From Mucilaginibacter oryzae (GTDB taxonomy: Bacteria; Bacteroidota; Bacteroidia; Sphingobacteriales; Sphingobacteriaceae): a DNA stretch of 64,000 nt. Positions within the stretch are counted from its first letter, which is position 1, and each line of letters opens with the position of its first letter. The notes under the pieces were generated by a model. The model was not told where the DNA came from. It saw only the letters and a list, made by a program, of their open reading frames with translations, and made no database searches. Made by a program: the position numbers and the translations under genes. The stretch covers positions 1-64,000 of the forward strand of contig NZ_QGHA01000004.1 of NCBI RefSeq assembly GCF_003148845.1. The letters are read 5' to 3'. Shown here piece by piece: positions 763 through 34,282 of this stretch.

Positions 763-1752
763 TTAATCTTTTGCAAATCCGCTTTTGCCATAAAATTTTG
801 TTACTGAATTCTTATCATCGTAATTGATATTCAAAATATCAGCAATCGCTTTTTTTTTATTTCCTGCTTGTCTATAATAACTTTTACAAATTTCATATCC
901 GATATAGTATCCGAGGTCTGGCCTTGTGCTAATCGCGCCTGAAATGAATAATTTAGCATTATATAACCAATTGTTAAAAATAAATTGCTTATCAGATTGG
1001 TTATCAGATTGTATATGTTCTATAAATAACTTCTTCAATGTTTTGGCATGTTTCCGTCCATAAATTGTGTATGGCATGGTATTCTTCCTGTTTAACAGAA
1101 AATCAGCAATAAAGTCTGCAGAACCTTCCATTAAACAAAGAGACAGGAGGTTCATATTTTCTAAATAGCCGGGATTTTGCTGAGTATGCGCAAGTTCGTG
1201 AGCGACCAAAAATTCTATACTTTGATTGTCGGAAACGATCATTTTAAAGTAAGGGTTAAGAGACTCTATTTTTGATTTTCTTGTGCCTGTTGCAATTTCT
1301 GTTCCTATAACAATACTATTATCTCCTTTATTAAATCCTCCGATTAGCATTGCCCCCATAGTGAATCGTATTTTGGGATAGCTGTAATTATTATAAGTTT
1401 TTTTAAAATTATCAAAAATCGCCAGATATTTAGCACTATCCGCTTTTACGCTTAAAGTTGCCTTTCTTATCGAATTTAAATATTCATGTTTATCTTTTAT
1501 CAACTTATATAGATCCCTGCTTTCAAAAAAATTGAAATTTTTTATCGCGGACAAAGCTTCAGAACCTTTATCGATATATTCATGCTGAATTAGTTGAACC
1601 GCAGTTACAGAATCAGGTATTGCGATGACTTTATCGTATACCTCCCAAAATAAATCAATGTCCGAGGTCTCAATCAGCGATTTTTGTTGTGCGAGTGAGC
1701 TTGCCATGACAAGACAAACCGTACCGAAAACTAATAGAATTCTTTTAATCAT
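763..1752 (-). CDS. Secreted HExxH metalloprotease-like protein (DUF2268/GldB-like)
   Basis: The 329-residue protein begins with a signal peptide (residues 1-21, ending in SLA-QQ), so it is exported. Residues 185-189 are HELAH, a zinc-binding HExxH motif. About 20 residues later comes LMEGSADF, whose glutamate is placed to be the third zinc ligand of a gluzincin. The layout (helical N-terminal half, HExxH in the second half, then EG(S/T)AD) resembles the predicted zinc proteases of DUF2268 and the GldB-like lipoproteins; no lipobox cysteine is seen. It stands alone on the minus strand, upstream of an AT-rich decayed stretch. The substrate is unknown. The peptidase fold is well supported by motif; activity is an inference. 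Confidence 0.65.
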   Translation of the reverse strand: MIKRILLVFGTVCLVMASSLAQQKSLIETSDIDLFWEVYDKVIAIPDSVTAVQLIQHEYIDKGSEALSAIKNFNFFESRDLYKLIKDKHEYLNSIRKATLSVKADSAKYLAIFDNFKKTYNNYSYPKIRFTMGAMLIGGFNKGDNSIVIGTEIATGTRKSKIESLNPYFKMIVSDNQSIEFLVAHELAHTQQNPGYLENMNLLSLCLMEGSADFIADFLLNRKNTMPYTIYGRKHAKTLKKLFIEHIQSDNQSDKQFIFNNWLYNAKLFISGAISTRPDLGYYIGYEICKSYYRQAGNKKKAIADILNINYDDKNSVTKFYGKSGFAKD

Positions 1753-1905: not shown

Positions 1906-3111
1906 TTATACTATAGTTGCCAAAATTATCTGTTCCTTTGTTTGATTTACCACAGGTATACTCTTGTTGTATTTCAAATTAAGGTTTAACATACTAGCGA
2001 AAAAACTATTAAATATTATTTGCGTACCTAACATTAAAGATGTAACGGCAGGAATGATGAGTCTTAACATTTTAGATGGCTGAAGAGTTCCGAAAGACTT
2101 TCCAATCCACATATGAATCGCATATAACGTCAGAGACAACCCCAAAATCAACATGATCCCTCCCGCTATCAACCCCCGTTCTAAAGTGAAATAATGATTG
2201 AATTCCCCGACCCATCTATTTTTGTAATCGAACCCCTTTTTTGCAGCAAATAGTTTCGAGCAAAAGTAAAAGGTAAGAGTTTGGAAACCAATAACAATTG
2301 CGGAGGCTGAATAAACCATCGTATGAACATCGAAAGTTACGTGTCCGAGAGGCACAGGACCAGGTAACAACAATGTGGTGATCATAATTCCCACGACCAT
2401 TAATATGGAGCCAGGATAAAGGAAAAGCCATGTAGGACAGTAAAGAAAAAGAAAGCGGAGATGTCTCCAGCCATCATGCCACGTCCGTAAATGAGGAGGA
2501 CGGGAACGTCCGTCGGGATAAAGCCTGACCGGTATTTCAGTTATTTTCTGTCCACTTAACGAACACTTTATGATCATTTCAGATGCGAACTCCATACCTG
2601 TTGTAAATAAATTAATACTTGCCATAGCTTGTCGGTTAACCCCCCTTATTCCACAGTGAAAGTCTCCTACCGGGATCTTAAAAAACAACCTGCCTACAAA
2701 TGATAATACGGGATTACCTAAATAGCGATGCAGAAAAGGCATTGAATTCGGTTCAATCCCGCCTAAGAATCTGTTTCCCATAACAAGGTCGTAGCCTTCC
2801 CGTAATTTCAAGACGAACGGAAAAATCTCAGAGAAATCATAACTGTCATCGGAGTCCGCCATGATAATATATTGTCCTTTCGCATGTTCGATCCCCGCAC
2901 GCAATACATTTCCATATCCTCTTTCCTTTACAATTATAACCCGGGCACCCGCATCAATAGCCAAGGATACTGAATTATCTGCACTGCCATTATCAGACAC
3001 CAATATTTCAGCATTTAATTGATAACGCTCGATTGAAAATTGAGCTTTTTTTATACATATTGCAATGGTCTGCTCTTCATTTAGGCAGGGCATTAAAATT
3101 GTTATTTCCAC
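1906..3111 (-). CDS. GT2 glycosyltransferase, polyprenyl-phosphate sugar synthase-like, with C-terminal membrane domain
   Basis: Residues 1-200 form a GT-A domain of the dolichol-phosphate mannosyltransferase type: PCLNEE near the start, SDNGSADNS at 39-47 and the metal-binding DSDDSYDF at about 86-93. The C-terminal half carries about four membrane helices, as in enzymes that load a sugar onto polyprenyl phosphate at the inner face of the membrane. Its start lies within the 3' end of the upstream gene (10-bp overlap), so the three minus-strand genes 1906-5849 are probably cotranscribed. The inferred role is making a lipid-linked sugar donor for the two neighbouring membrane proteins. The sugar is not determinable. 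Confidence 0.8.
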   Translation of the reverse strand: MEITILMPCLNEEQTIAICIKKAQFSIERYQLNAEILVSDNGSADNSVSLAIDAGARVIIVKERGYGNVLRAGIEHAKGQYIIMADSDDSYDFSEIFPFVLKLREGYDLVMGNRFLGGIEPNSMPFLHRYLGNPVLSFVGRLFFKIPVGDFHCGIRGVNRQAMASINLFTTGMEFASEMIIKCSLSGQKITEIPVRLYPDGRSRPPHLRTWHDGWRHLRFLFLYCPTWLFLYPGSILMVVGIMITTLLLPGPVPLGHVTFDVHTMVYSASAIVIGFQTLTFYFCSKLFAAKKGFDYKNRWVGEFNHYFTLERGLIAGGIMLILGLSLTLYAIHMWIGKSFGTLQPSKMLRLIIPAVTSLMLGTQIIFNSFFASMLNLNLKYNKSIPVVNQTKEQIILATIV

Positions 3112-4502
3112 GATTTAGGTTTTAAATTGTATATAGATGGTAATAGGAAACTGTAAAAGTCCGAAAAGCAACCAACCTTGCCTAAATATAAAAATAAAGG
3201 CAATGGTAGCAGCCAAATAACACGGGTTTGATAACGTGGGAACACGCCTGAAAATGTGCTACATATCCAGGCGTTCACTATAAGCGCTATTAAAAAGAAC
3301 ACCATCACCATTCGTGTACGTCGATCTACTTTCTTATTTAAAAAAGAAAAAAAGTATAAGACCAAGCATATCGCAACAATAACATCCTGCGTAAAGTTCA
3401 TAAAGTCCACTTTCAAATGATTGGTGTTTTCCCGCGATTCCAAAAATACAGTATATTCCTCGTCATAGTTGGTCGCGACGGCACGCTTGACACGTTCAGC
3501 AGCCGGCGCTATTTCTTCCATATCGTAGTTAAAAAAAAGTTTGATGCTATATAGCCCCGACTGAAAAAGAAATGTCTTTAAATACTTTGGCCGTGTGACG
3601 ATGTCTTTCAGTATGTAAGTGTATTCTTTATCATTAACCACCCAGCCACCTGTTTTTTGCAATGGGCTATTTCCATCCCATATGAAATTATTAGGCAAAG
3701 AATCCTTATATGCGCAAATTTTGAATTGATGACATTGGCAATTGTCGTCAAGATAAATATCTATCAACCCCATCTCCACTGCGTTACTCATCAGGAATAT
3801 GATTCCTCCGCGAGAGCTGGTAAATCCACTATTGAAAAAGTAGTGAACCCCGCTTAGAAATATTTGACTAAATAGCACGAGGCCAAGAATATAAACGCTA
3901 CGTTTCAAGCCAAGCCCAATTATATTGTACCCGTATCTAACTCTTTTAAAAAAACACCCACCAAATAAGATGGACAAGATTGATATTGATATGTAAAAAT
4001 GTGAATTATGGACCCCGTTACTCAGAATAACCACTAACGATATTATTATATGATCTCTGCTTTTCAAATCTCTGACAAATACCAAAAGTCCAATACAAAG
4101 AACTAAAATAGGAGTAAATATATCTGGCATTATCCAACTAACTTCGAATGAAGCCCCCATGAAAAATGATGCCATGCAAATGAAAGCAATATAATAATAT
4201 AAAAACCGCTCTCCCCCAATTAAGTATCGGAAGTAATAATATATAACTAAGGCTGTGATTAATCCTTGTGAAATGACTACAAGCCATAATGACGTTGATA
4301 AGCTGGAGCAAAATATCAAGAGTCCGTATAATATCGGTCGATCAAGTTGGACGAAGCCATTGAATGCCGATTCAATGTACGACCCTGTATCATTATTAAA
4401 CGTTAAAGGATATCTGTTATAAAAAGCCATCCAGCACAATAAAATAGTTGTCGCGAGAATTGCGGCCGCTTTAGCAATCCTTTTATTTCCGTAATTTCCC
4501 AT
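3102..4502 (-). CDS. Polytopic membrane protein, possible GT-C-type glycosyltransferase
   Basis: The 466-residue protein has about ten hydrophobic helices. After the first helix comes the acidic loop motif NNDTGSYIESAF, then DRPILYG and SLWLVVISQ. The tail contains PRYQTRVIWLLPLP. An acidic pair in the first outer loop plus multiple helices is the layout of GT-C enzymes that use lipid-phosphate sugars, and the GT2 gene downstream fits as donor synthase. I do not recognise a named family. The next gene upstream is a diverged copy that shares the D-(T/S)-G-S-(Y/F)-I and IIWxLxLP motifs, and only 3 bp separate the two. The function is an inference. Confidence 0.6.
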   Translation of the reverse strand: MGNYGNKRIAKAAAILATTILLCWMAFYNRYPLTFNNDTGSYIESAFNGFVQLDRPILYGLLIFCSSLSTSLWLVVISQGLITALVIYYYFRYLIGGERFLYYYIAFICMASFFMGASFEVSWIMPDIFTPILVLCIGLLVFVRDLKSRDHIIISLVVILSNGVHNSHFYISISILSILFGGCFFKRVRYGYNIIGLGLKRSVYILGLVLFSQIFLSGVHYFFNSGFTSSRGGIIFLMSNAVEMGLIDIYLDDNCQCHQFKICAYKDSLPNNFIWDGNSPLQKTGGWVVNDKEYTYILKDIVTRPKYLKTFLFQSGLYSIKLFFNYDMEEIAPAAERVKRAVATNYDEEYTVFLESRENTNHLKVDFMNFTQDVIVAICLVLYFFSFLNKKVDRRTRMVMVFFLIALIVNAWICSTFSGVFPRYQTRVIWLLPLPLFLYLGKVGCFSDFYSFLLPSIYNLKPKSWK

Positions 4503-4505
4503 TCT

Positions 4506-5849
4506 CTATACTTCCTTTGATTGGCTTACTGATGATTTCTGCCCATTCGCTAAACCTAACCTTCCCAGACGTGTTTTACATAGATGCCCGAAAAAAGGAA
4601 GAGAAAGTATCCATATTATTTGTGAGTCAGGTTTTTTATCACCGCCGTAAATTGCAGCGCTGATAAAGCAGTAAACAATGATTGCGACTATCGAGTAAGA
4701 AGTTAGAGTAACATCTTTTTTAGTACGTAAAAAAACCAAGCACGCAAAACCAATAGCAATTGAAAGAATAACGATCATTTGCGAATAATTTAGATAGTCG
4801 AGCCAAAGCCAATTCTGGAACTGGCGAGAAATCATGCATTCCCGCGACTCCCAGTTATACCAATGATAAATAGAATCAAAACTTTCCGAGTTCACATCCG
4901 GCTTTTCATAACTTTCAATTCCAAAATTCGTTAAACGAGTGTAGAAATTTTGTATAGTTCTAATCAAGATTCTCCAATTGAGTGCCTTCTCAATTTGTAT
5001 TTGACTTACAATCTTCTTCGTTGAATTGGGGTCAACACCAATTGAAGAGAAATCATAAAAATGAGTTCCTCCTTTGTGGAGAATAGCCGGCACGAGTAAT
5101 TTACTGACATGAGTTTGATTTGGATAATCGAGAAGTATTCCTGTATTTCGAAAATAACAGAATTTGGCCGTAATTATTTCCAAATCAGCTTCACTTTTGC
5201 TCTGAGAAATCCTGCGACTAAAGAAAATCGATATAAGTGTTAACAAAGCAATACAAGATAAAACGCCGGATCTTTTAAATTTAAAGCTGCGAAAACCGCC
5301 TATAATTTTCCTTTTTCTCAAAACAAATTTTAATTTATAGCAGCAGCTGAAAAGTAAAATGAATAAAATATTAATAAAATCGACAAATGAACATGCTATA
5401 AGAATAAAAGCGATCAAATATAAATCCCGTTTTGACAATCCATCGGCGCAATAAAATACACCTAGGATTAGAATGGTGATGGATGAAAATATTCCCGGCG
5501 ATATCGTGCTGGTAATCAAAGATGCAGGTAAAAGTAATGTAATGATAGATACATAGGAGACATAAAGTACTGCTCTATTTCTTTCATGGAAAAAATATTT
5601 AAAACACAAGGCTAAGGTTACTGAAAGTAATAATGATTGACCGAGAATCACTAACCATATAGATTTTCCCCAACTGATGTGAGCAATAAATAAGCCGTAA
5701 AAAGAAGTCGAATGGTTTAGTAAAGTCCTGTCAAAGCCAGAATTGATAAAACTTCCTGAATCCAATGTTAATAACGGAAACTTATTCCTAAATCCGTAAA
5801 AACATAACATCACTGTGCTAAAAATAATAGCTATAATACTTTTATTCAT
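4506..5849 (-). CDS. Polytopic membrane protein, paralogue of its downstream neighbour
   Basis: The 447-residue protein has about ten membrane helices. It shares with the 3102-4502 product the early motif TLDSGSFINSGF, a following FYGLF, SIWLVILGQ, and a late IIWILSLPFF. It is first in the minus-strand block of three and ends 3 bp before the next start. The charged 300-residue region in the middle (carrying a W-Y-N-W stretch) would face the periplasm. A GT-C-like role using a lipid-linked sugar is possible. No catalytic assignment can be made from the sequence alone. Confidence 0.6.
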   Translation of the reverse strand: MNKSIIAIIFSTVMLCFYGFRNKFPLLTLDSGSFINSGFDRTLLNHSTSFYGLFIAHISWGKSIWLVILGQSLLLSVTLALCFKYFFHERNRAVLYVSYVSIITLLLPASLITSTISPGIFSSITILILGVFYCADGLSKRDLYLIAFILIACSFVDFINILFILLFSCCYKLKFVLRKRKIIGGFRSFKFKRSGVLSCIALLTLISIFFSRRISQSKSEADLEIITAKFCYFRNTGILLDYPNQTHVSKLLVPAILHKGGTHFYDFSSIGVDPNSTKKIVSQIQIEKALNWRILIRTIQNFYTRLTNFGIESYEKPDVNSESFDSIYHWYNWESRECMISRQFQNWLWLDYLNYSQMIVILSIAIGFACLVFLRTKKDVTLTSYSIVAIIVYCFISAAIYGGDKKPDSQIIWILSLPFFGHLCKTRLGRLGLANGQKSSVSQSKEV

Positions 5850-6212: not shown

Positions 6213-7581
6213 TTATTGATTTCCGTTTCTTCCAAACTTCCGCGGATAAAAGGCAAGAGTTAAGATATAGTATTGTTTTAAAACATTTACGTTGCCTATA
6301 GTAAGTGTGTTACCCGCCCCATAATTTATCACACTTTTATTTTGACGAAGTAGGTCGAGAGCCGAGAATTTAATCTCACCTTTATTGCCTTTCAAAAATC
6401 TGTAGGTTACGCTGGCGTTCCAAATATTAAAAGTACTTGGAGGTACATACGATGAAGTGATTTTATTGAAGGTGATATTGCTACTAAAAGTAATCTGGCC
6501 AGGAACATTCATACTCCCACTGACAATTGTCCGTTGAACGGAATTTCTTAATTGGGCATTGTTCGCACCGAATTGGTCTGAACGATACCAGGAAAAAAAC
6601 TGTGAAGCTTTTAAAGCAAAAGTATGCCCTAATGTATAGAGTAGATTTAAGACATTCTCATTGTAGAAATTTTTCACATGGGTGACTAAACCGTTAATAT
6701 ATTGAGGCTGCACACTTTCAGTAAAAACTGTGCTTCCGTTCACCTGTAATTGATTTTTGTTCATTTTGACAGCTTTATAAAATTCAGTTTTAGTTTTTAA
6801 ATATTTGGCATCAGGGACATTAATCGAATAATTGGCGGCACGACCGGCCCCATCGTAAATGATACTATCAACAAGTGCATTTCGCAAGCTCCCTAAGTTT
6901 ACGTACGTTACAAAGCTGTCGAATAATCCTTTTGATCGAAAGTTAATATAGGAAAAGTTGAACGACAGCTCTCTCTTGTAAAAAGGCCGGGCGTCTGGAT
7001 TTCCATATTGTTGGAAATAAGTATTTGTACTATCAATAAGCGACGTGATCTGGTTGACTGTCGGATAACCAATACTTGAGGAATAGTTCGATTTCAATGT
7101 TATTAAATGGTCGCCAAACTGGTCATCCGTATAGGTTATATCAGCTTGCGGCAGGAAAAACGCATAGCAGTGGTTAAAGTTCTGAAACTTATGTTGTGAA
7201 GTATTATGTTGATTATAAAATTGTTCCTGAATATCAGTTCCAAGGAAGAGCGACTTACGGAACCTGTTGGTAAAATTTTTATTGAATATTCTGAAAAACG
7301 ATAATGACGGAACGTCATCCGTAGTCGTGTAGCGACTTCTGTTAGTTAGATAGTTATTAATTATATAAGTTCCAGACGAGACATTATGATCTGTTATGAC
7401 ATTATTGGTTATATCTTCCTTTATCTTTATTGTATTAGTCAATAGTATGCTGATATCATAAATGCCAGCGGATTTGAAAAACAGTTTTTTAAGATCGGCC
7501 TGCGCCCGAAATTCATTGTAAATGCTTTCTATATGATTATCATAATTCCTGTCAAAGTTTGAATTTTGAAGCGTATCTGTA
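6213..7581 (-). pseudogene. TonB-dependent/outer-membrane beta-barrel receptor, 5' part lost at IS
   Basis: The C-terminal portion of an outer-membrane barrel is present: long alternating strands, extracellular loops rich in N, Y and T, and a C-terminal tail LTLAFYPRKFGRNGNQ typical of PF14905-type receptors. The annotated-looking start at 7442 is TTG and is not real. The frame stays open upstream through NSNFDRNYDNHIESIYNEF to about 7581, where the IS21 element begins and a stop (7584-7586) follows. Signal peptide, carboxypeptidase-like domain and plug are all missing. The 5' part is not on the other side of the element, so the gene cannot be restored by simple excision. It is non-functional as it stands. 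Confidence 0.8.
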
Positions 7582-7594
7582 TGTTATGGATATG

Positions 7595-7627
7595 TTGACC
7601 ACCCTTTTCCGGGCCAAATTGACCACT
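7595..7627. repeat. IS21 left-end transposase-binding repeats
   Basis: Two copies of a TTGACCA-containing site start at 7595 and 7619, 24 bp apart, the first followed by TTTTCCGGG. They are the inverted counterparts of the repeats at the right end and are probably IstA binding sites. Confidence 0.65.
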
Positions 7628-7701
7628 GGGTTAGCTGACTTTTGGGTTGCAGCAAATGCTATAAAAGCGTGTACAAAATAGTTATTTAAAAGGTATTTCC
7701 A

Positions 7702-8448
7702 TTAGTAGCTTTTTGCTGGTTCAACACTACGTTTTTTCCTCATAGATTCCCCCTTCAGTTCGATACGATGCGCATCATGAACGATCCGGTCAAGGATCGC
7801 ATCAGCAACCGTTTTTTCACCAATCACTTCAAACCATTTGCTTACCGGTAGCTGTGAGGTAATGATAAGGGAGGTCTTGCCATGCCTGTCCTCGATAAGT
7901 TCCATTAGCGCAGCCCTGCTTTGTGCATCAAAAGGCTGGATACCGAAGTCATCCAGTATGAGCAGCTGTGTCCTTTCGAGTTTAGCCAGCTCTTTGATAT
8001 AGGAGCCGTCTGCTTTTGCCATCTTCAGTTTAGCGAATAGCTTGGGGGTACTGGCGTAGAATACCCTGTAGCCCAGCATACAGGCCTGATAGCCAATAGC
8101 AGAAGCCACATAACTTTTACCAATGCCGGTACTACCAGTAACCAGTACGTTTTCATTGCGGTCAATGAAGGTACAGTCTGCCAGGCGCATGATCTGGTTG
8201 CGGTCGATACTTCGTTCGGCATGGTAATGCATGTCCTCTACAGAAGCTTTATAGCGGAACTTGGCATATTGTATTGTCCTTTCTATACGCCTGTTTTGCC
8301 GGTCGTCCCATTCTGCATCTACCAACAGAGCGAGTAGCTCATCCGCTGTATGATCGTTAGTTTTACCCGTTTCCATGCTGCTTTTGAAAGCATGGAATAT
8401 ACCGAAGAACTTCATCTTCCTCATCTTTTCTAATGTACTTGTGTTCAT
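7702..8448 (-). CDS. istB: IS21 transposition helper ATPase IstB
   Basis: The 248-residue AAA+ ATPase helps the IstA transposase to select targets. Walker A is GSTGIGKSYVA (about residue 104-114) and Walker B is LLILDDFGIQPF. The N-terminal helical segment starting MNTSTLEKMRKMKFFG is typical of IstB. The length is normal for the family and the frame is intact. The start is ATG at 8448, 19 bp after the restored istA stop, so the two genes form one transcript. A working IstB without a working IstA would not be expected to mobilise the element. Confidence 0.93.
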   Translation of the reverse strand: MNTSTLEKMRKMKFFGIFHAFKSSMETGKTNDHTADELLALLVDAEWDDRQNRRIERTIQYAKFRYKASVEDMHYHAERSIDRNQIMRLADCTFIDRNENVLVTGSTGIGKSYVASAIGYQACMLGYRVFYASTPKLFAKLKMAKADGSYIKELAKLERTQLLILDDFGIQPFDAQSRAALMELIEDRHGKTSLIITSQLPVSKWFEVIGEKTVADAILDRIVHDAHRIELKGESMRKKRSVEPAKSY

Positions 8449-8467
8449 GTTATTGTTGTTTTAATGG

Positions 8468-10017
8468 TTATTTGTAATAGTCTTTTCCCCTGATATTATC
8501 GTGGTTAGGCATCGGCAGCTCATCGGCAAACAAGCTTTCCTCATAGCCGTCCATCTTATTCTCCAGGATGGTTTGTATGGTTTTACAGTTGTAAATACCA
8601 TAGCTGAGTGCACGCTGGCAAGCCATTATTAACCGCTCGTTACCTGCTTTCTTCGCAAAGCCAAGTACCCCAGACAGGACTTGTAAGCCTGTTCCGGGTG
8701 CTGTTTGCGGTCAAGTATCTTAAGGGTATACAGTCTGACATCCTCATGGATGGAAGCAGCCCATTCTAAGAACTTATCAGGCGTCCAGTCGGTTACAAAG
8801 CGGTGCGTAGTAGCCATGTGGTCTTTGTCGGTCTTATAACCGTAAGGGTTCTTTGCCCGTTTGTGCAAAGCAATGCGCTCGTAGTTGGAGTAGATCTCTA
8901 CGATAGTACTGGAATACAAAAGCTTAACCCGCTTGCCGATGAAGCGATATGGCACACTGTAATAGTGTTTATCCGGGCCGAGGTTGACATGGCCGTTCTT
9001 GATCACTTTAGCGTAGAAGTGCTTTTTGAACTGGTAAGGCAGGACAGGCAACGGCATCAGCGTATGCCGCTCGATCTCTTCAAACTGTAGCCTTCGGCTG
9101 TAGTTGCGACCTTTAAGTAATTGACTGTTATGGGTTTCCAATGCTTCCCAGATACCTTTATTCAACTCTTTTAGAGAATGATAGGTAACCCGGTTGATCG
9201 GTGCATAGATCTTGGTATAAATGATCTTAACGGCACCTTCTACCAACGCTTTATCACGCGGGCGGTACGCCCGCGCTGGTAGTATGGTCGTGCCGTAATG
9301 ATCTGCAAAGTCTTCGAACGTTTCGTTCAGGGTGGGCTCATAGCGGCTGCTTTTGGTTACGGCTGCCTTCAGGTTATCGGGTACAATGGCCGCAGGAACG
9401 CCACCAATAAAGTGCAGGGTGTTCTCACAGGCAGCAATAAAGTCTTCCTTCTGTTGGCTCATAACTGCTTCAACATAGGTTAACTGGCTGGCTCCGAGGA
9501 TAGCCACAAAGACCTCTACTGCAATAACTTCACCGGTATCCTTATCGGTATAGCTTAGCTTTTCGCCTGCAAAGTCCACATAAAGCTTATCACCGGCTTT
9601 GTGATCCATATGCATGGTCGGGTTGACCCTGGCTTTCCACTGGTTATAATAAAAGCAGAATTGACTGTACTGATACCCGTCAGGAAACTCTTTATAGTAG
9701 GCCTCCCATAGGATCTGCCGGTTCCTGCCGGTCTTTTTAAGCTCTTTATCGACGTGGGGGAAACAGCGCAGCATGGACTGCATACGTGCGTTAGGCGGGT
9801 GTTCTTTAGACTTTCCGAACAGGTCTTCCAGTTCTTTGTCGTTCAGTGCATTAACCTCATCAAAGATGAGGCCACTGGCTTTTAATGTTGCTACATACTT
9901 TTTTACCGTGTTTCTCGATGCATCAGCCTGGGCAGCTATGGTCATTAAAGGCCGCTGTTGGCTGTACATCTTTAATATCTTTCTGATCTTACTCATGCTG
10001 ATTGTTAAGTTTGCCAT
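8468..10017 (-). pseudogene. istA: IS21 transposase IstA, 1-bp frameshift near the C terminus
   Basis: The frame from 10017 carries the N-terminal helix-turn-helix (MTIAAQADASRNTVKKYV) and the DDE core: YVDFAGEKL, VPDNLKAAV and a later RDKALVEGAV. It ends prematurely with CLGYLALRRKQVTSG at 8629. In the adjacent frame the expected continuation follows, SGVLGFAKKAGNERLIMACQ, and runs to LPMPNHDNIRGKDYYK and a stop at 8468-8470, which would give about 516 residues. The shift maps to a run of four C on the plus strand at 8668-8671; five would restore the frame. This may be a real mutation or a sequencing slip. The catalytic core is unaffected, so residual activity cannot be excluded. Confidence 0.85.
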
Positions 10018-10082
10018 TCTTAGGAAGGTGTATTTGCCCTCAAATGATGGTCTCTTCTACAGCATTTGCTACGTGTTTGCGG

Positions 10083-10168
10083 TGGTCAGTTTGCCCCGGA
10101 ATCAGGTGGTCAGTTTCGCCCGGAATAGATGGTCAGTTTGTCCCGGAACATAGTGGTCAAGTTCAACA
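10083..10168. repeat. IS21 right-end tandem transposase-binding repeats
   Basis: Three near-identical copies of TGGTCAGTTT(g)CCCCGGAA start at 10083, 10107 and 10130, and a fourth partial copy TGGTCAAGTTCAACA starts at 10154. Spacing is 23-24 bp. Their inverted counterparts lie at the left end. IS21 elements are known for multiple terminal binding sites, so these are probably IstA sites; the regular spacing is about two helix turns. Confidence 0.75.
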
Positions 10169-10525
10169 GAATCTCCAGATATAATCAATAGCCCCTTTAT
10201 AACTCATCATTTATCCAACTACAATAAAAGAAAGATTTTTGAGCTCGTATCAGATTTAAAATCATTCTATGCTGGAATATTATTGGAGGTATATGAGCAA
10301 AGGAATTATATTCAACATTCTGGAATCAGCAATGAAATGGCCATGGCTAAGTTGAATAAAACCTTACCTTCGATTATTGAGATTTTTAGATTTGCCATTT
10401 TTCAAACGGTGAAGAAAAACGAGACTAATGATTTGGATGAAGTATTGAAAAAACTTGAAAGTCCGAACAATGAAATTAGGGATATGATCAAAAATGGTTT
10501 AGACTTTTTGAGTTTAAAAGGATAA
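10169..10525 (+). pseudogene. HEPN-like protein, 5' part lost at IS
   Basis: The frame is open from the IS edge (first codon GAA at 10169) to the stop at 10525, 118 codons, mostly helical. It contains LEVYEQRNYIQHSGISNE, where R-N-Y-I-Q-H fits the R-x4-H signature of HEPN ribonuclease domains of the Apea-like kind. The possible TTG start at 10283 would remove only part of the upstream coding-like sequence, so it is more likely that the true start lay further 5' and was lost when the IS-mediated rearrangement occurred. HEPN proteins are often in defence or toxin systems. No partner gene is left. The family call is moderate. Confidence 0.5.
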
Positions 10526-10606
10526 ATTCTGGGCAATTTCTTTGATTTTACTGCCTAACTTAAACTAAGTGAAACCACTTGATGTTTAATCACGGTTTTA
10601 TCGGAT

Positions 10607-10640
10607 AAAAAAAGGGAGCTACATTGTTTTGTAACTCCCT
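10607..10640 (-). terminator. Intrinsic terminator downstream of the tRNA fragment
   Basis: On the minus strand the stem AGGGAGTTAC / GTAGCTCCCT (one G-U wobble, favourable only on this strand) encloses an 8-base loop and is followed by seven T. It lies 12 bp beyond the 3' end of the tRNA-Ala fragment, as expected for the natural terminator of a tRNA transcript. Confidence 0.8.
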
Positions 10641-10651
10641 GATTATCAAGG

Positions 10652-10697
10652 TGGGGAATATCGGAGTCGAACCGATGACCTCTTGCATGCCATGCAG
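10652..10697 (-). pseudogene. 3' half of tRNA-Ala(GGC), attachment-site remnant
   Basis: Read on the minus strand, the segment gives the anticodon loop ATGGCAT (anticodon GGC), the 3' anticodon strand, the variable region AGGTC, a perfect T-arm (ATCGG TTCGACT CCGAT), the 3' acceptor strand ATTCCCC and discriminator A. The D-arm and 5' acceptor strand are absent, and the 5' anticodon strand has a C-A mismatch, so it cannot be a working tRNA. Integrases of the tyrosine family often use the 3' half of a tRNA as attB and leave such a copy at the distal junction of an integrated element. CCA is not encoded. Confidence 0.8.
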
Positions 10698-11116
10698 GCT
10701 AAATTTTTTGAATTTTGTTCGTCACTTTTGTTACTTGTTTGTTGCTTTAAGATTGTAAGTACTTATAAATCAATTTAATATTTGATTCCGGCCATGCAAC
10801 AAAAGTAATAAAACGCCTGTGCTGCGTTACGGTTCCCGAACGCTTATGTCGTTTTGATGTAGTAAAGCAATTGAATTTCCGGTGCCTGCTTCGCGGGTAT
10901 GACAGGGATTATCTGTTCGTTCGCTTTAACGGCGGTTTTTGGATTACAGATTAACATCAACATGCAAAAGGTTTAATTGTTTATAAACAATTATAAGCTG
11001 ATCTTATAGCGCTTATGACTAAAACTAAAATCTTATAGCACAATGCAATGAATATCAGTGCGCCAAAAATAAACTGAAGGGCATTTTCATATTTGCGATT
11101 CCGGACAGGCATTTTT
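10698..11116. other. Intergenic stretch beside the tRNA fragment
   Basis: No gene is seen. The first 60 bases contain GTTCGTCACTTTTGTTAC and TTGTTTGTTGC, near-repeats that could be integrase arm sites of a lost element; this is speculative. The rest is non-coding in all frames, with an AT-rich stretch before the response-regulator stop. Confidence 0.35.
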
Positions 11117-31580: not shown

Positions 31581-31798
31581 TGTTCAGCCACAACGCCGGT
31601 GTTCAAAATACCAACGGTTAAAAACTCCTACATGCTGAAATGCTGCCGACTGCACTTAATGGCCTAAATTATTAGCTATGGTAACTATTCTGTTACTTCC
31701 AACTCGCTTATAGCGGCCGGAAGTTAAAAAGTGTTAAACGCACATTTTTCATTGTAACGGTCGGATATCTTACACGTCTTATCACCAAAATCGCAATT

Positions 31799-34282
31799 AT
31801 GAAACAAGTTTTACTAACAGTGTTATGCTGTTTTGTAACGGGCCTGGCAATGGCCCAAACTACCACAACAGTGCCTGTTAAAAATATAACGGTGAAGGGA
31901 ACAGTGATCGATTCGGCGGCTAACAAGCCTTTAGGCTATGGCACCGTTGCCCTGCAGGATGCTGCTACCAAAGCTCCTGTAAAAAGCACCCTTGCCAAAG
32001 ATGACGGCAGCTTTGAATTGAAAGCACCCGAAGGCAAAACCTACCAATTGGTAGTGGCCTCGGTTGGCTATGCTACCAAAATTATCCCGGTAAAACTTAA
32101 TGGGAGTATCTTTGATGCGGGTCGGATCCTGGTAGCCACATCTAACAAACAACTGAACGAGGTAACCATTACCGCCGTAAAACCGGTAATGAAGCAGGAG
32201 GTTGACCGGCTGAGCTACGATGTAACTGCCGACCCGGAAAGCAAAGCCATATCAGCATTAGACATGATGCGGAAAGTGCCGCTTTTAGCTGTTGATGGCG
32301 ACGATAACATCAAATTAAAGGGCAGTGGCAAATACAAGATCCTGATTAACGGAAAAGAATCGGCGCTGATGGCTAAAAACCCGTCGGATGTGTTGAAAGC
32401 CATGCCTGCAACCAATATCGAAAAAATTGAGGTGATCACCACGCCACCTGCAAAATACGATGCTGAAGGTTTAGCCGGTATCATCAACATCATCACCAAA
32501 AAAAATGCCGACCAGGGCTTTAATGGCAGCGTAAACTCCCGTTACAACACCGTTTGGGGAGCGGGTTATAACCTTAATATTACCGCCAAACAAGGTAAAT
32601 TCGGTATTTCGGGTTATGCGGGTTTCGGGAATCAAAAACGTAACACCAATACATCAACCACCAAACAAACTTTTTTTAATCCGCAGTCAACAATTCTGCA
32701 AACGGGCGATAATTCGTTCGGCGGAAAATACCGATACGCCAATGCCGAAATGAGTTATGAAATTGATACGCTGAACCTGCTTACCGGTTCGTTTGAGTTT
32801 TTTCATGGCGAGTTTGATCAGAATGGCGCCCAACGCTTAAGACAAATCAACGCGGCCGACGCTTTAACGCAGGGCTATTTTTTAACTACCAACGGTTATA
32901 ACCACGACCAGGGACTGGACGCATCCATCAACTACCAGTTGGGTTTTAAGGGGCATAAAGATGAGTTGCTGACCTTATCGTACAAATACAGCTACGGACC
33001 GGGCAAAAACTACAGCGATAACCTGTTTACCGACAGGGATCATTATTATAACGCTATTCAACCCGATTTCAGGCAGTACAATAACGCCGGTAACCGCGAA
33101 CATACCTTCCAGCTGGATTATGCCTACCCGGTAAAAAAGATCAGCATCGAGGCAGGGGCCAAAGTGATCCTCCGTAATAACTTCAGCGATTACAGGCGTG
33201 AAGATAAAGACTCGACCACCGCGGCTCCCAACGCCATATACAATGTAAACGCAGGCCAAACCGGCGAGTTTAATTATCACCAGGATGTGTACAGCGCCTA
33301 TAACTCGTACCAGTTAAAGTTTGATAAATGGACGGGTAAAGCAGGTTTACGCCTGGAGCACACCCAGGTGGATGCCGTATTTACCGGTACGCCACTTGAT
33401 AAAAGTTATAACAACCTGATCCCGTCGGTATCCATCCAGCGTTCGCTGAAAAGCAGCAGCCTGAGCCTTGGTTTTACCCAACGTATCCAAAGGCCGGGTA
33501 TTTACCAGTTAAACCCTTTTATCGATAAATCAAACCCCAAATTTATCACCACCGGTAACCCTGATCTGAAGCCGGAACTGAACAATACCTTCGAGTTGAA
33601 TTACAGCAATTTCTCTAAAGGGTCAATCAATGTTGGCTTGAGCTACGCGTTCTCCAACAATGCTATCCAGAATGTAACCAGTCTCGTCCAGAATAATATG
33701 GGCGATCATATCGACACTGTTACCTTCACCACATATCAAAACCTGGGCAGCAACCGTTCGTTAGGTTTAAACCTAAATACCAATTATTCTATCACTAAAA
33801 AGTTTACGATTAATATTAACGGGCAGGTTTCGCACATCTGGCTAAAGGGTACCTATAATGGCCGGTTTTATAAAAATGATGGGTACACAGGCAATGCTTT
33901 CGCCAACTTAGCCTATAAATTTGACGGTGGCTACCGCCTGGGGCTTGATGCCGGTTTTTTTAGCGGCGATGTTACGCTGCAGGGCAAATCGAGCAATTTT
34001 ATTTTTAACTCGTACGTACTCTCCAAAGAGTTCCTGAATAAAAAGCTTACCATATCGGCAGTAGCCAATAACCCGTACAGCAGGTACCGCACTTTCCGGT
34101 CGACCACCCATACCGCCGATTTTGACCAGGAATCGTTGTTCCATAACCGCTACCGAAACTTTGCTGTGAGGGTTAACTTTAAATTCGGTAAGCTCAACAG
34201 CGAGATTAAAAAGAATCAGCGCGGTATTAACAATGATGATACCAAAGGCGGCGGCAAAAGCAATGGCGGCGGTAACGGATAA
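31799..34282 (+). CDS. TonB-dependent receptor-like outer-membrane protein (PF14905 type)
   Basis: The 827-residue protein has a signal peptide (to about residue 20, AMAQTT). A carboxypeptidase-regulatory-like beta sandwich spans 28-105 (VKGTVIDSAANKPLGYGTVA). The plug domain at about 115-230 includes LDMMRKVPLLAVDGDDNIKL and GLAGIINIITKKNA, and a beta barrel fills the rest. The last strand is followed by a basic, glycine-rich tail (DDTKGGGKSNGGGNG) instead of ending in the aromatic residue. The substrate is unknown; no SusD partner follows. It is intact, in contrast to the truncated receptor at 6213-7581. Confidence 0.85.
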   Translation: MKQVLLTVLCCFVTGLAMAQTTTTVPVKNITVKGTVIDSAANKPLGYGTVALQDAATKAPVKSTLAKDDGSFELKAPEGKTYQLVVASVGYATKIIPVKLNGSIFDAGRILVATSNKQLNEVTITAVKPVMKQEVDRLSYDVTADPESKAISALDMMRKVPLLAVDGDDNIKLKGSGKYKILINGKESALMAKNPSDVLKAMPATNIEKIEVITTPPAKYDAEGLAGIINIITKKNADQGFNGSVNSRYNTVWGAGYNLNITAKQGKFGISGYAGFGNQKRNTNTSTTKQTFFNPQSTILQTGDNSFGGKYRYANAEMSYEIDTLNLLTGSFEFFHGEFDQNGAQRLRQINAADALTQGYFLTTNGYNHDQGLDASINYQLGFKGHKDELLTLSYKYSYGPGKNYSDNLFTDRDHYYNAIQPDFRQYNNAGNREHTFQLDYAYPVKKISIEAGAKVILRNNFSDYRREDKDSTTAAPNAIYNVNAGQTGEFNYHQDVYSAYNSYQLKFDKWTGKAGLRLEHTQVDAVFTGTPLDKSYNNLIPSVSIQRSLKSSSLSLGFTQRIQRPGIYQLNPFIDKSNPKFITTGNPDLKPELNNTFELNYSNFSKGSINVGLSYAFSNNAIQNVTSLVQNNMGDHIDTVTFTTYQNLGSNRSLGLNLNTNYSITKKFTININGQVSHIWLKGTYNGRFYKNDGYTGNAFANLAYKFDGGYRLGLDAGFFSGDVTLQGKSSNFIFNSYVLSKEFLNKKLTISAVANNPYSRYRTFRSTTHTADFDQESLFHNRYRNFAVRVNFKFGKLNSEIKKNQRGINNDDTKGGGKSNGGGNG

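Follow-up and report, generated by a model that had tools for sequence, protein, structure and literature searches.

A lipid-sugar synthase, two GT-C-like paralogues and an exported peptide: a candidate O-glycosylation cluster in Mucilaginibacter oryzae and other Bacteroidota

The first 64,000 nucleotides of contig C4 (NZ_QGHA01000004.1) in the 5.94 Mb assembly of Mucilaginibacter oryzae, referred to below as the window, carry three tightly linked genes for membrane proteins, and the question raised by this locus is which sugar transfer such a set of genes might perform and on which acceptor. The original prediction had seen in it a membrane glycosylation system, in which a lipid-sugar synthase of glycosyltransferase family 2 (GT2) charges polyprenyl phosphate with a sugar that is then transferred on the outer face of the membrane by two proteins of the GT-C type. 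This function is supported in part, as the coupling of a GT2 synthase to a GT-C protein fits the observations, whereas a second working transferase is improbable and the unit extends beyond three genes. Chances appear to be about even that the genes belong to a dedicated extracytoplasmic O-glycosylation module which acts on an exported peptide encoded in the same cluster.

The gene trio and the GT-C fold

The three open reading frames (ORFs), all intact and on the minus strand, code for a GT2 protein of the polyprenyl-phosphate sugar synthase type (1906-3111, 401 aa, GTG start), for ORF2 (3102-4502, 466 aa), according to its model a GT-C fold membrane transferase and the probable catalytic subunit, and for ORF3 (4506-5849, 447 aa), a GT-C fold paralogue that is probably its non-catalytic partner. 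The linkage proposed for them, with an overlap of 10 bp between the GT2 gene and ORF2 and a gap of 3 bp between ORF2 and ORF3, was confirmed. That ORF2 and ORF3 are true paralogues, as had been claimed, was confirmed by BLASTP (E = 2e-24, 25% identity across 441 columns), and the shared motif D-(T/S)-G-S-(Y/F)-I is indeed present in the first loop (DTGSYI and DSGSFI, respectively), the second motif, quoted as IIWxLxLP near the end, being nearly exact (VIWLLPLP and IIWILSLP).

The GT2 domain (Glycos_transf_2, PF00535; Pfam E = 9.7e-24) covers residues 4-163 and is accompanied by four hydrophobic segments at the C-terminus in the hydropathy profile, which bears out the description as a synthase of the dolichol-phosphate mannose (DPM) type with C-terminal membrane helices. 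The nearest NCBIfam model is archaeal AglJ (E = 4.5e-36, 124.7 bits versus a cut-off of 325), and the phmmer matches in the PDB are ArnC-type enzymes, Dol-P-Man synthase and sll0501 (E from 1e-11 to 1e-7); the tail gave no match to PF04138 at E = 1. Judged by PF00535 and by its ArnC and DPMS relatives, the protein would correspond to the GT2 polyprenyl-phosphate sugar synthase of three-component Gtr systems.

Neither ORF2 nor ORF3 matches a Pfam or NCBIfam family above cut-off, and a placement of ORF2 in a curated family was therefore rejected. In particular, the window ORF2 has no Pfam match at E = 0.01 and is thus not placed by sequence in the protein O-mannosyltransferase (PMT) family GT39. 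Matches at chance level were obtained for one ORF2 member each with Androglobin_IV (E = 0.16), PMT_2 (E = 0.0059, 1 of 23 members) and STM3941_fam (E = 0.0079), and an ORF2 sequence profile retrieved nothing from the PDB at E = 10.

The AF2 model of ORF2, for which the window copy was aligned with 22 relatives (23 rows), has a pLDDT of 88.7 and a pTM of 0.89, and its best matches in VIA-align are Pmt4 and Pmt1-Pmt2 (Z = 16.4, 325-334 residues, root-mean-square deviation 4.3-4.7). Rows 1-43 (Z = 7.5-16.4) are GT-C-type proteins, amongst them 9ub7_B and 8imx_U, subunits of the glycosylphosphatidylinositol (GPI) transamidase which we take to be GT-C-like, and the first other row follows at Z = 4.5; helical bundles can reach a Z of about 13 by arrangement alone, but in this case the unrelated rows score far lower. 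Foldseek matches were weak, the best being ArnT (E = 0.021) and none reaching E = 0.001, with chains of ArnT, PglB, OST and PMTs mixed in the top rows with low-probability G-protein-coupled receptors and transporters. The model of ORF3, for which 18 of the 24 alignment rows are ORF2s, has a pLDDT of 82.1 and a pTM of 0.85 and matches Pmt4 with a Z of 17.1. As modelled, both proteins are therefore GT-C folds, closest to the fungal PMTs (Z 16-17), and since both confident models contain the GT-C helix bundle, the concern that the predicted folds might lack it did not materialise. The ORF2 group is a GT-C family for which neither Pfam nor NCBIfam has a model.

ArnT and PglB share the GT-C fold with ORF2 at lower scores (Z = 13.5 and 13.0, respectively) than the PMTs. 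The substrate of ArnT is lipid A, and the oligosaccharides transferred by PglB come from lipid pyrophosphate. An ArnT-like modification of lipid A was set aside as first choice because of this difference (13.5 versus 16.4), although both enzymes are distant and Z alone is not decisive.

A probably active and a probably degenerate paralogue

The trio is not unique to the window, as contig C25 of this assembly carries a second copy, and ORF3-ORF2 pairs are found at seven loci, namely in the window, on C25, and in Mucilaginibacter sp. FT3.2, Chitinophaga tropicalis, Niastella vici, Niastella caeni and Sphingobacterium sp. GVS05A. In the five ORF2 relatives from these other genomes (41-54% identity) and in the C25 copy an ORF3-type gene lies directly upstream, i.e., in seven out of seven cases with the window included, while no such gene was found there for the 17 ORF2 relatives with 26-33% identity and a readable upstream region. 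In a tree of 33 rows, rooted by midpoint, all ORF3s group in a single clade (7 rows, 100/99), the trio ORF2s in another (7 rows, 95/93), and a branch with 100/99 separates these 14 rows jointly from the rest; a single duplication within this lineage, retained in pairs, explains the ORF3-ORF2 arrangement.

With one relative's protein as query, ORF2 relatives were found in 68 of 395 genomes of the class (counting the genomes of the window and of the query), but within the taxonomic family of the window few genomes have one (3 of 399, its own included). When a four-row profile was searched across the phylum, the window's own genome was the only one retrieved among 395, which probably reflects a loss of sensitivity, both sample and query being other than in the class-wide search. 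A separate arrangement was observed at locus L026 (G044:C109, 5446-10898), where the genes of an ORF2 relative and of a DPM-type GT2 overlap and two more proteins with eight helices follow, and which is possibly another multi-transferase cluster.

Invariant in all 23 ORF2 rows are, amongst others, D38, Y42, D54-R55-P56, Y59, Q79, D127, H165, the cysteines 255 and 263, W275, W287, R423 and W430. In the ORF2 model, D38 stands near the beginning of helix 36-48, which comes after the first transmembrane helix (TM1) and opens loop 1. D127 belongs to the end of the second loop, where helix 126-142 begins shortly behind 117-122; H165 is part of loop 3, and R423 is located in the last loop, flanked by helices 394-417 and 426-429. 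For comparison, PMC12331936 assigns D74 of MtPMT to external loop (EL) 1, D176 to the second luminal loop and R441 to EL5, and an analysis of TMTCs and ArnT (PMC7801869) describes an acidic EL1 motif and an arginine before TM10 in the TMTCs. ORF2 has an acid in the first loop, an acid in the second and an arginine in the last, in agreement with the GT-C literature on EL1, EL2 and EL5; these loops would face outwards, and their residues would have the same roles in ORF2 by analogy.

ORF3 presents a different picture. None of the six rows aligned has kept an equivalent of D127 or H165, and both are lost as well in the C25 copy, which is not part of this set and has a lysine in place of the first aspartate. 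The full set of GT-C catalytic residues is not found in ORF3, and because D127 and H165 have no equivalent in any copy aligned, ORF3 is, as far as its sequence tells, probably a non-catalytic partner and not a second working transferase. The aspartate equivalent to D38 is kept in five of six rows and the D-R-P motif in two, both of them Niastella copies, and together with the preserved GT-C fold these remnants would fit an ORF3 that is active with another acceptor or donor, the pair then adding two sugars or two linkages. This is quite unlikely, however, given the losses just described, the lack of the first-loop acid in the Sphingobacterium copy, and the fact that an arginine aligns to R423 in only two of six rows, in a poorly conserved stretch. 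Also the end branches of the tree are longer in ORF3 (0.54-2.52) than in ORF2 (0.35-1.47), ORF3 evolving faster.

The exported peptide and the cluster in relatives

With respect to gene content, the unit is larger than the three genes to which it had been confined, a likely acceptor peptide being part of it. The cluster consists of ORF3-ORF2, an exported peptide and beta-propellers of the DUF5128 family, often joined by an outer-membrane barrel, a signal peptidase I or an FAD oxidoreductase. In C. tropicalis and Sphingobacterium, which belong to two bacterial families, the order is peptide, DUF5128 propeller, small protein, propeller, barrel, ORF3, ORF2 and GT2, all on a single strand and with gaps of -53 to +95 bp; gene order differs at the remaining loci. 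The peptide gene is part of the cluster at all six loci apart from the truncated one in the window. Scanning the six genomes for DUF5128 (PF17170) gave 15 matches, 10 of them at an ORF3-ORF2 locus, and in five of the six genomes all matches are located there. Domains were tested for selected members, the remaining assignments being made by eye, and these scans identified OMP_b-brl_3 in the C25 barrel, Peptidase_S26 in three peptidases, an FAD amine oxidoreductase in FT3.2 and Sphingobacterium, and LytTR in C25 and FT3.2.

The GT2 gene directly follows ORF2 at five of the seven loci, in one of them (C25) in truncated form, and in N. caeni a divergent GT2 is found 3 kb from ORF3. Throughout the six trio genomes, long-form GT2 relatives (at least 42% identity) are restricted to the ORF3-ORF2 loci, with the sole exception of a copy elsewhere in N. 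vici that has an in-frame stop. The supposition that the trio is kept together in relatives therefore held for the ORF2/ORF3 pair, and not for the GT2 gene, which is absent from FT3.2 and of which a similar gene was found in 2 of 20 stretches around non-trio ORF2s (counting all ORFs and including locus L078, but leaving out L103 at a contig edge; ORF2 of L070 is broken).

At the six loci the peptide has 140-192 aa, a hydrophobic N-terminal stretch and 3-7 cysteines, and no family match over cut-off. The longest serine run comprises 24 residues in Sphingobacterium, 17 in FT3.2, 13 in C. tropicalis, 7 in N. caeni, where SST repeats are also present, 3 in the C25 peptide of the window's own genome and 2 in N. 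vici. Serine runs or S/T repeats are thus present in four of the six, and after residue 40 all six contain 19-47% S+T. Among 2233 ORFs from 47 loci, runs of at least 10 serines occur in cluster peptides only (5 ORF records, 3 distinct), a count in which some places are taken twice (L064/L084, L065/L088, L025/L091, L068/L089 and L074/L090). By comparison, the longest run is 4 (389 ORFs) at 29 DUF5128 loci of the same family that have no ORF2 or ORF3 within the stretch of 1.5 kb on each side, most of which show no clear peptide candidate in that stretch, and at an N. vici DUF5128 locus apart from the trio, a peptide of 95 aa has no more than 2 serines in a row. The serine codons of Sphingobacterium and N. 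caeni are a mixture of TCN and AGY, and therefore serine itself seems to be kept; those of FT3.2 and C. tropicalis are AGT or AGC only, and for this reason the runs in these two might be slipped repeats.

The families, folds, conserved residues and gene order, together with the association with the peptide, suggest the following mechanism. On the cytoplasmic side, the GT2 protein would load the sugar of a nucleotide sugar onto polyprenyl phosphate, and the lipid-linked sugar would be flipped, possibly aided by the four-segment tail of the synthase. On the outer face, ORF2 would then pass the sugar on to an acceptor, with D38 in the first loop as putative base and R423 in the last loop holding the lipid phosphate, by analogy with other GT-C enzymes. 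The duplicated and presumably mostly non-catalytic ORF3 would play a structural or regulatory role, pairing with ORF2 in the manner of PMT dimers. Gene order points to the exported, often Ser/Thr-rich cluster peptide as the most likely acceptor, and to the signal peptidase I, the beta-propellers and the outer-membrane barrel as the components that may process and export it. Since PMTs glycosylate serine and threonine residues of exported proteins, the proximity of a PMT-like enzyme to an exported peptide rich in serine is suggestive. At somewhat less than even chances, and thus more tentatively, the whole cluster might be a glycopeptide system, in which a lipid-sugar synthase and an active/degenerate PMT-like GT-C heterodimer coat the serine tract of the peptide, and in which peptidase, propellers and barrel process it and display or release it.

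A number of observations weigh against an O-glycosylation module dedicated to the peptide. First of all, the GT-C fold as such says nothing about the acceptor. FT3.2 has ORF3-ORF2 and a poly-serine peptide but no long-form GT2 in its entire genome (best 29% identity), which implies that the GT2 is replaceable, and the trio comes with no flippase. Most ORF2-family members looked at across the Bacteroidota have no GT2 and no peptide locus, and the ancestral acceptor must therefore have been a different one; at locus L082 (G838:C13:42001-60000), moreover, two ORF2-family genes from outside the trio clade stand in tandem (8284-9666 and 9683-11002, about 16 bp apart) where no such peptide was seen, so that pairing alone is no mark of the system. 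In N. vici, one of six DUF5128 matches is at the trio locus and five are away from it. Two of the six peptides, those of N. vici and of the window's own genome (C25), are without a serine run, and the sequon D-S/T-x of general O-glycosylation in Bacteroidetes occurs once across all six. Finally, serine-rich peptides are found at four of six trio loci (counting the run of 7) versus none of five trio-less loci (p = 0.045, Fisher's exact test), but this comparison is small and hand-picked, the trio-less peptides having been chosen by eye (L122, L125, L129, L130 and L134).

Two further kinds of genes were observed at these loci. An FAD oxidoreductase gene is present at four of the seven (L084, 5243-6661; L086, 2698-4116; L087, 5746-7164; L088, 11769-13409), and the protein of FT3.2 matches the NCBIfam models PRK07208.1-4 over cut-off (E = 3.4e-157) and Pfam GLF, UDP-galactopyranose mutase (E = 5e-8); such an enzyme might make an unusual sugar donor. 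N. vici (L086, 4113-5477, 454 aa) and Sphingobacterium (L088, 10487-11785, 432 aa) each have an additional polytopic protein without Pfam match, which may be a further GT-C-like or flippase component.

Known systems and the truncated copy in the window

The statement that no named system with exactly the composition of the trio was known needs to be qualified in view of the close parallels offered by GtrA/GtrB/GtrX, CsbB/GtcA/YfhO and Ppm1/PMT. In PMC7389260, the first two and GtlA/GtcA/GtlB are described as likewise combining a GT2 that makes a polyprenyl-phosphate sugar with a membrane glycosyltransferase acting outside, and O-antigen and teichoic acids are given as acceptors. The trio in the window differs by the absence of a GtrA-family gene and by two paralogous GT-C proteins instead of one, and its neighbourhood points to a peptide rather than to a polysaccharide. 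As GT2 and membrane transferase form the core of these systems, a GtrB-like GT2 and a GT-C protein might also decorate lipopolysaccharide, capsule or another surface polymer, the location within a peptide cluster being incidental or regulatory. In line with this, a GtrA-type gene (PF04138, E = 2.7e-25) stands at the start of the Sphingobacterium locus, and those looked at of the ORF2 relatives from the 68 class genomes lie outside peptide loci. On the other hand, inspection by eye recognised no O-antigen or capsule genes near the trio loci and no GtrA adjoining the other six, and the tight gene order with the peptide is common to two bacterial families, so that polymer decoration is unlikely.

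With regard to the preferred reading as a peptide-directed module, the nearest parallels are Ppm1 with PMT (GT39) in Actinobacteria and Dpm1 with Pmt1-Pmt2 or Pmt4 in fungi, where a GT2 synthase likewise feeds a GT-C enzyme. The acids in EL1 and EL2 and the arginine in EL5 are features in common, and Pmt4 and Pmt1-Pmt2 are also the best structural matches; according to the titles of the structures Pmt4 was solved as a homodimer and Pmt1-Pmt2 as a complex of paralogues. Differences are the size of ORF2 (466 aa versus 690-728 in most of the fungal PMT structures listed), the lack of a PMT family match at cut-off, one paralogue that looks inactive, and the setting in a peptide cluster. Loci of the Bacteroidota with six-bladed DUF5128/DUF4934 propellers likewise combine a propeller, a barrel and a small cysteine-containing protein with a hydrophobic N-terminal stretch, but the control loci have neither ORF2 or ORF3 in the stretch nor a peptide with a serine run. 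No paper on DUF5128/DUF4934 peptide loci was among the literature matches listed, and the literature search found none on polyserine glycosylation, on GT-C O-glycosylation in Bacteroidetes, on NVEALA, on NHL-repeat proteins and secreted peptides or on three-component Und-P systems with a GT-C enzyme.

The locus represents neither a housekeeping function nor a new fold, but likely the design of lipid-sugar synthase and GT-C enzyme with an unusual active/degenerate pair and a built-in substrate. If this is true, a Bacteroidota O-glycosylation enzyme would be encoded beside its own substrate, so that enzyme, sugar and acceptor are directly testable, and the parallel between the active/degenerate GT-C pair and the PMT heterodimers opens a test of the purpose of the second subunit.

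In the window itself the cluster is incomplete. Directly upstream of the trio lies the C-terminal half of the cluster's outer-membrane barrel gene (6213-7568, minus strand), the 5' half of which is missing; residues 495-941 of the N. caeni barrel match window positions 7568-6228 in tblastn (43%, E = 2e-100). It is followed by an IS21-type insertion sequence (7578-10178, minus strand) with two ORFs (7702-8448 and 8629-10017), which ends the locus upstream. The label IS21 with istA-istB derives from recognition of the ORF sequences, and the limits derive from a related element on contig C5 (query 19-568 and 831-2619, 73-75% DNA identity). The 5' half of the barrel gene was not found in the window beyond the insertion, nor convincingly elsewhere in the assembly. 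A move to contig C12 was rejected, the gene there having C-terminal matches of its own, and the 20 kb of C12 examined contain no IS21 DNA and no propeller match.

The genes for peptide, propeller and peptidase are absent at the window site and present on C25, and the window copy may accordingly represent the glycosylation end only, with the peptide encoded at C25. The cut barrel gene, the adjacent insertion sequence and the loss of these genes from the site might also mark it as a decaying leftover without substrate, all the more as C25 has the genome's sole DUF5128 match. We regard such decay as possible but rather doubtful, because the ORFs of the trio are intact and ORF2 has kept its invariant residues. 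Moreover, the C25 GT2 is truncated, and the window GT2 may thus be needed in trans. This C25 gene (7856-8596 of C25:1-13465) has kept the first 226 residues, with 63% identity, and its product ends at 246 aa, without the four hydrophobic segments.

Of the neighbouring genes, one directly downstream of the GT2 gene (763-1752, minus strand) codes for a predicted zinc-dependent protease (DUF2268, E = 1.2e-9), and no counterpart was seen by eye at the other trio loci. Farther away in the window, at about 31790-33784 on the plus strand, there is an outer-membrane protein with distant similarity to the barrel of the cluster (22-31% identity).

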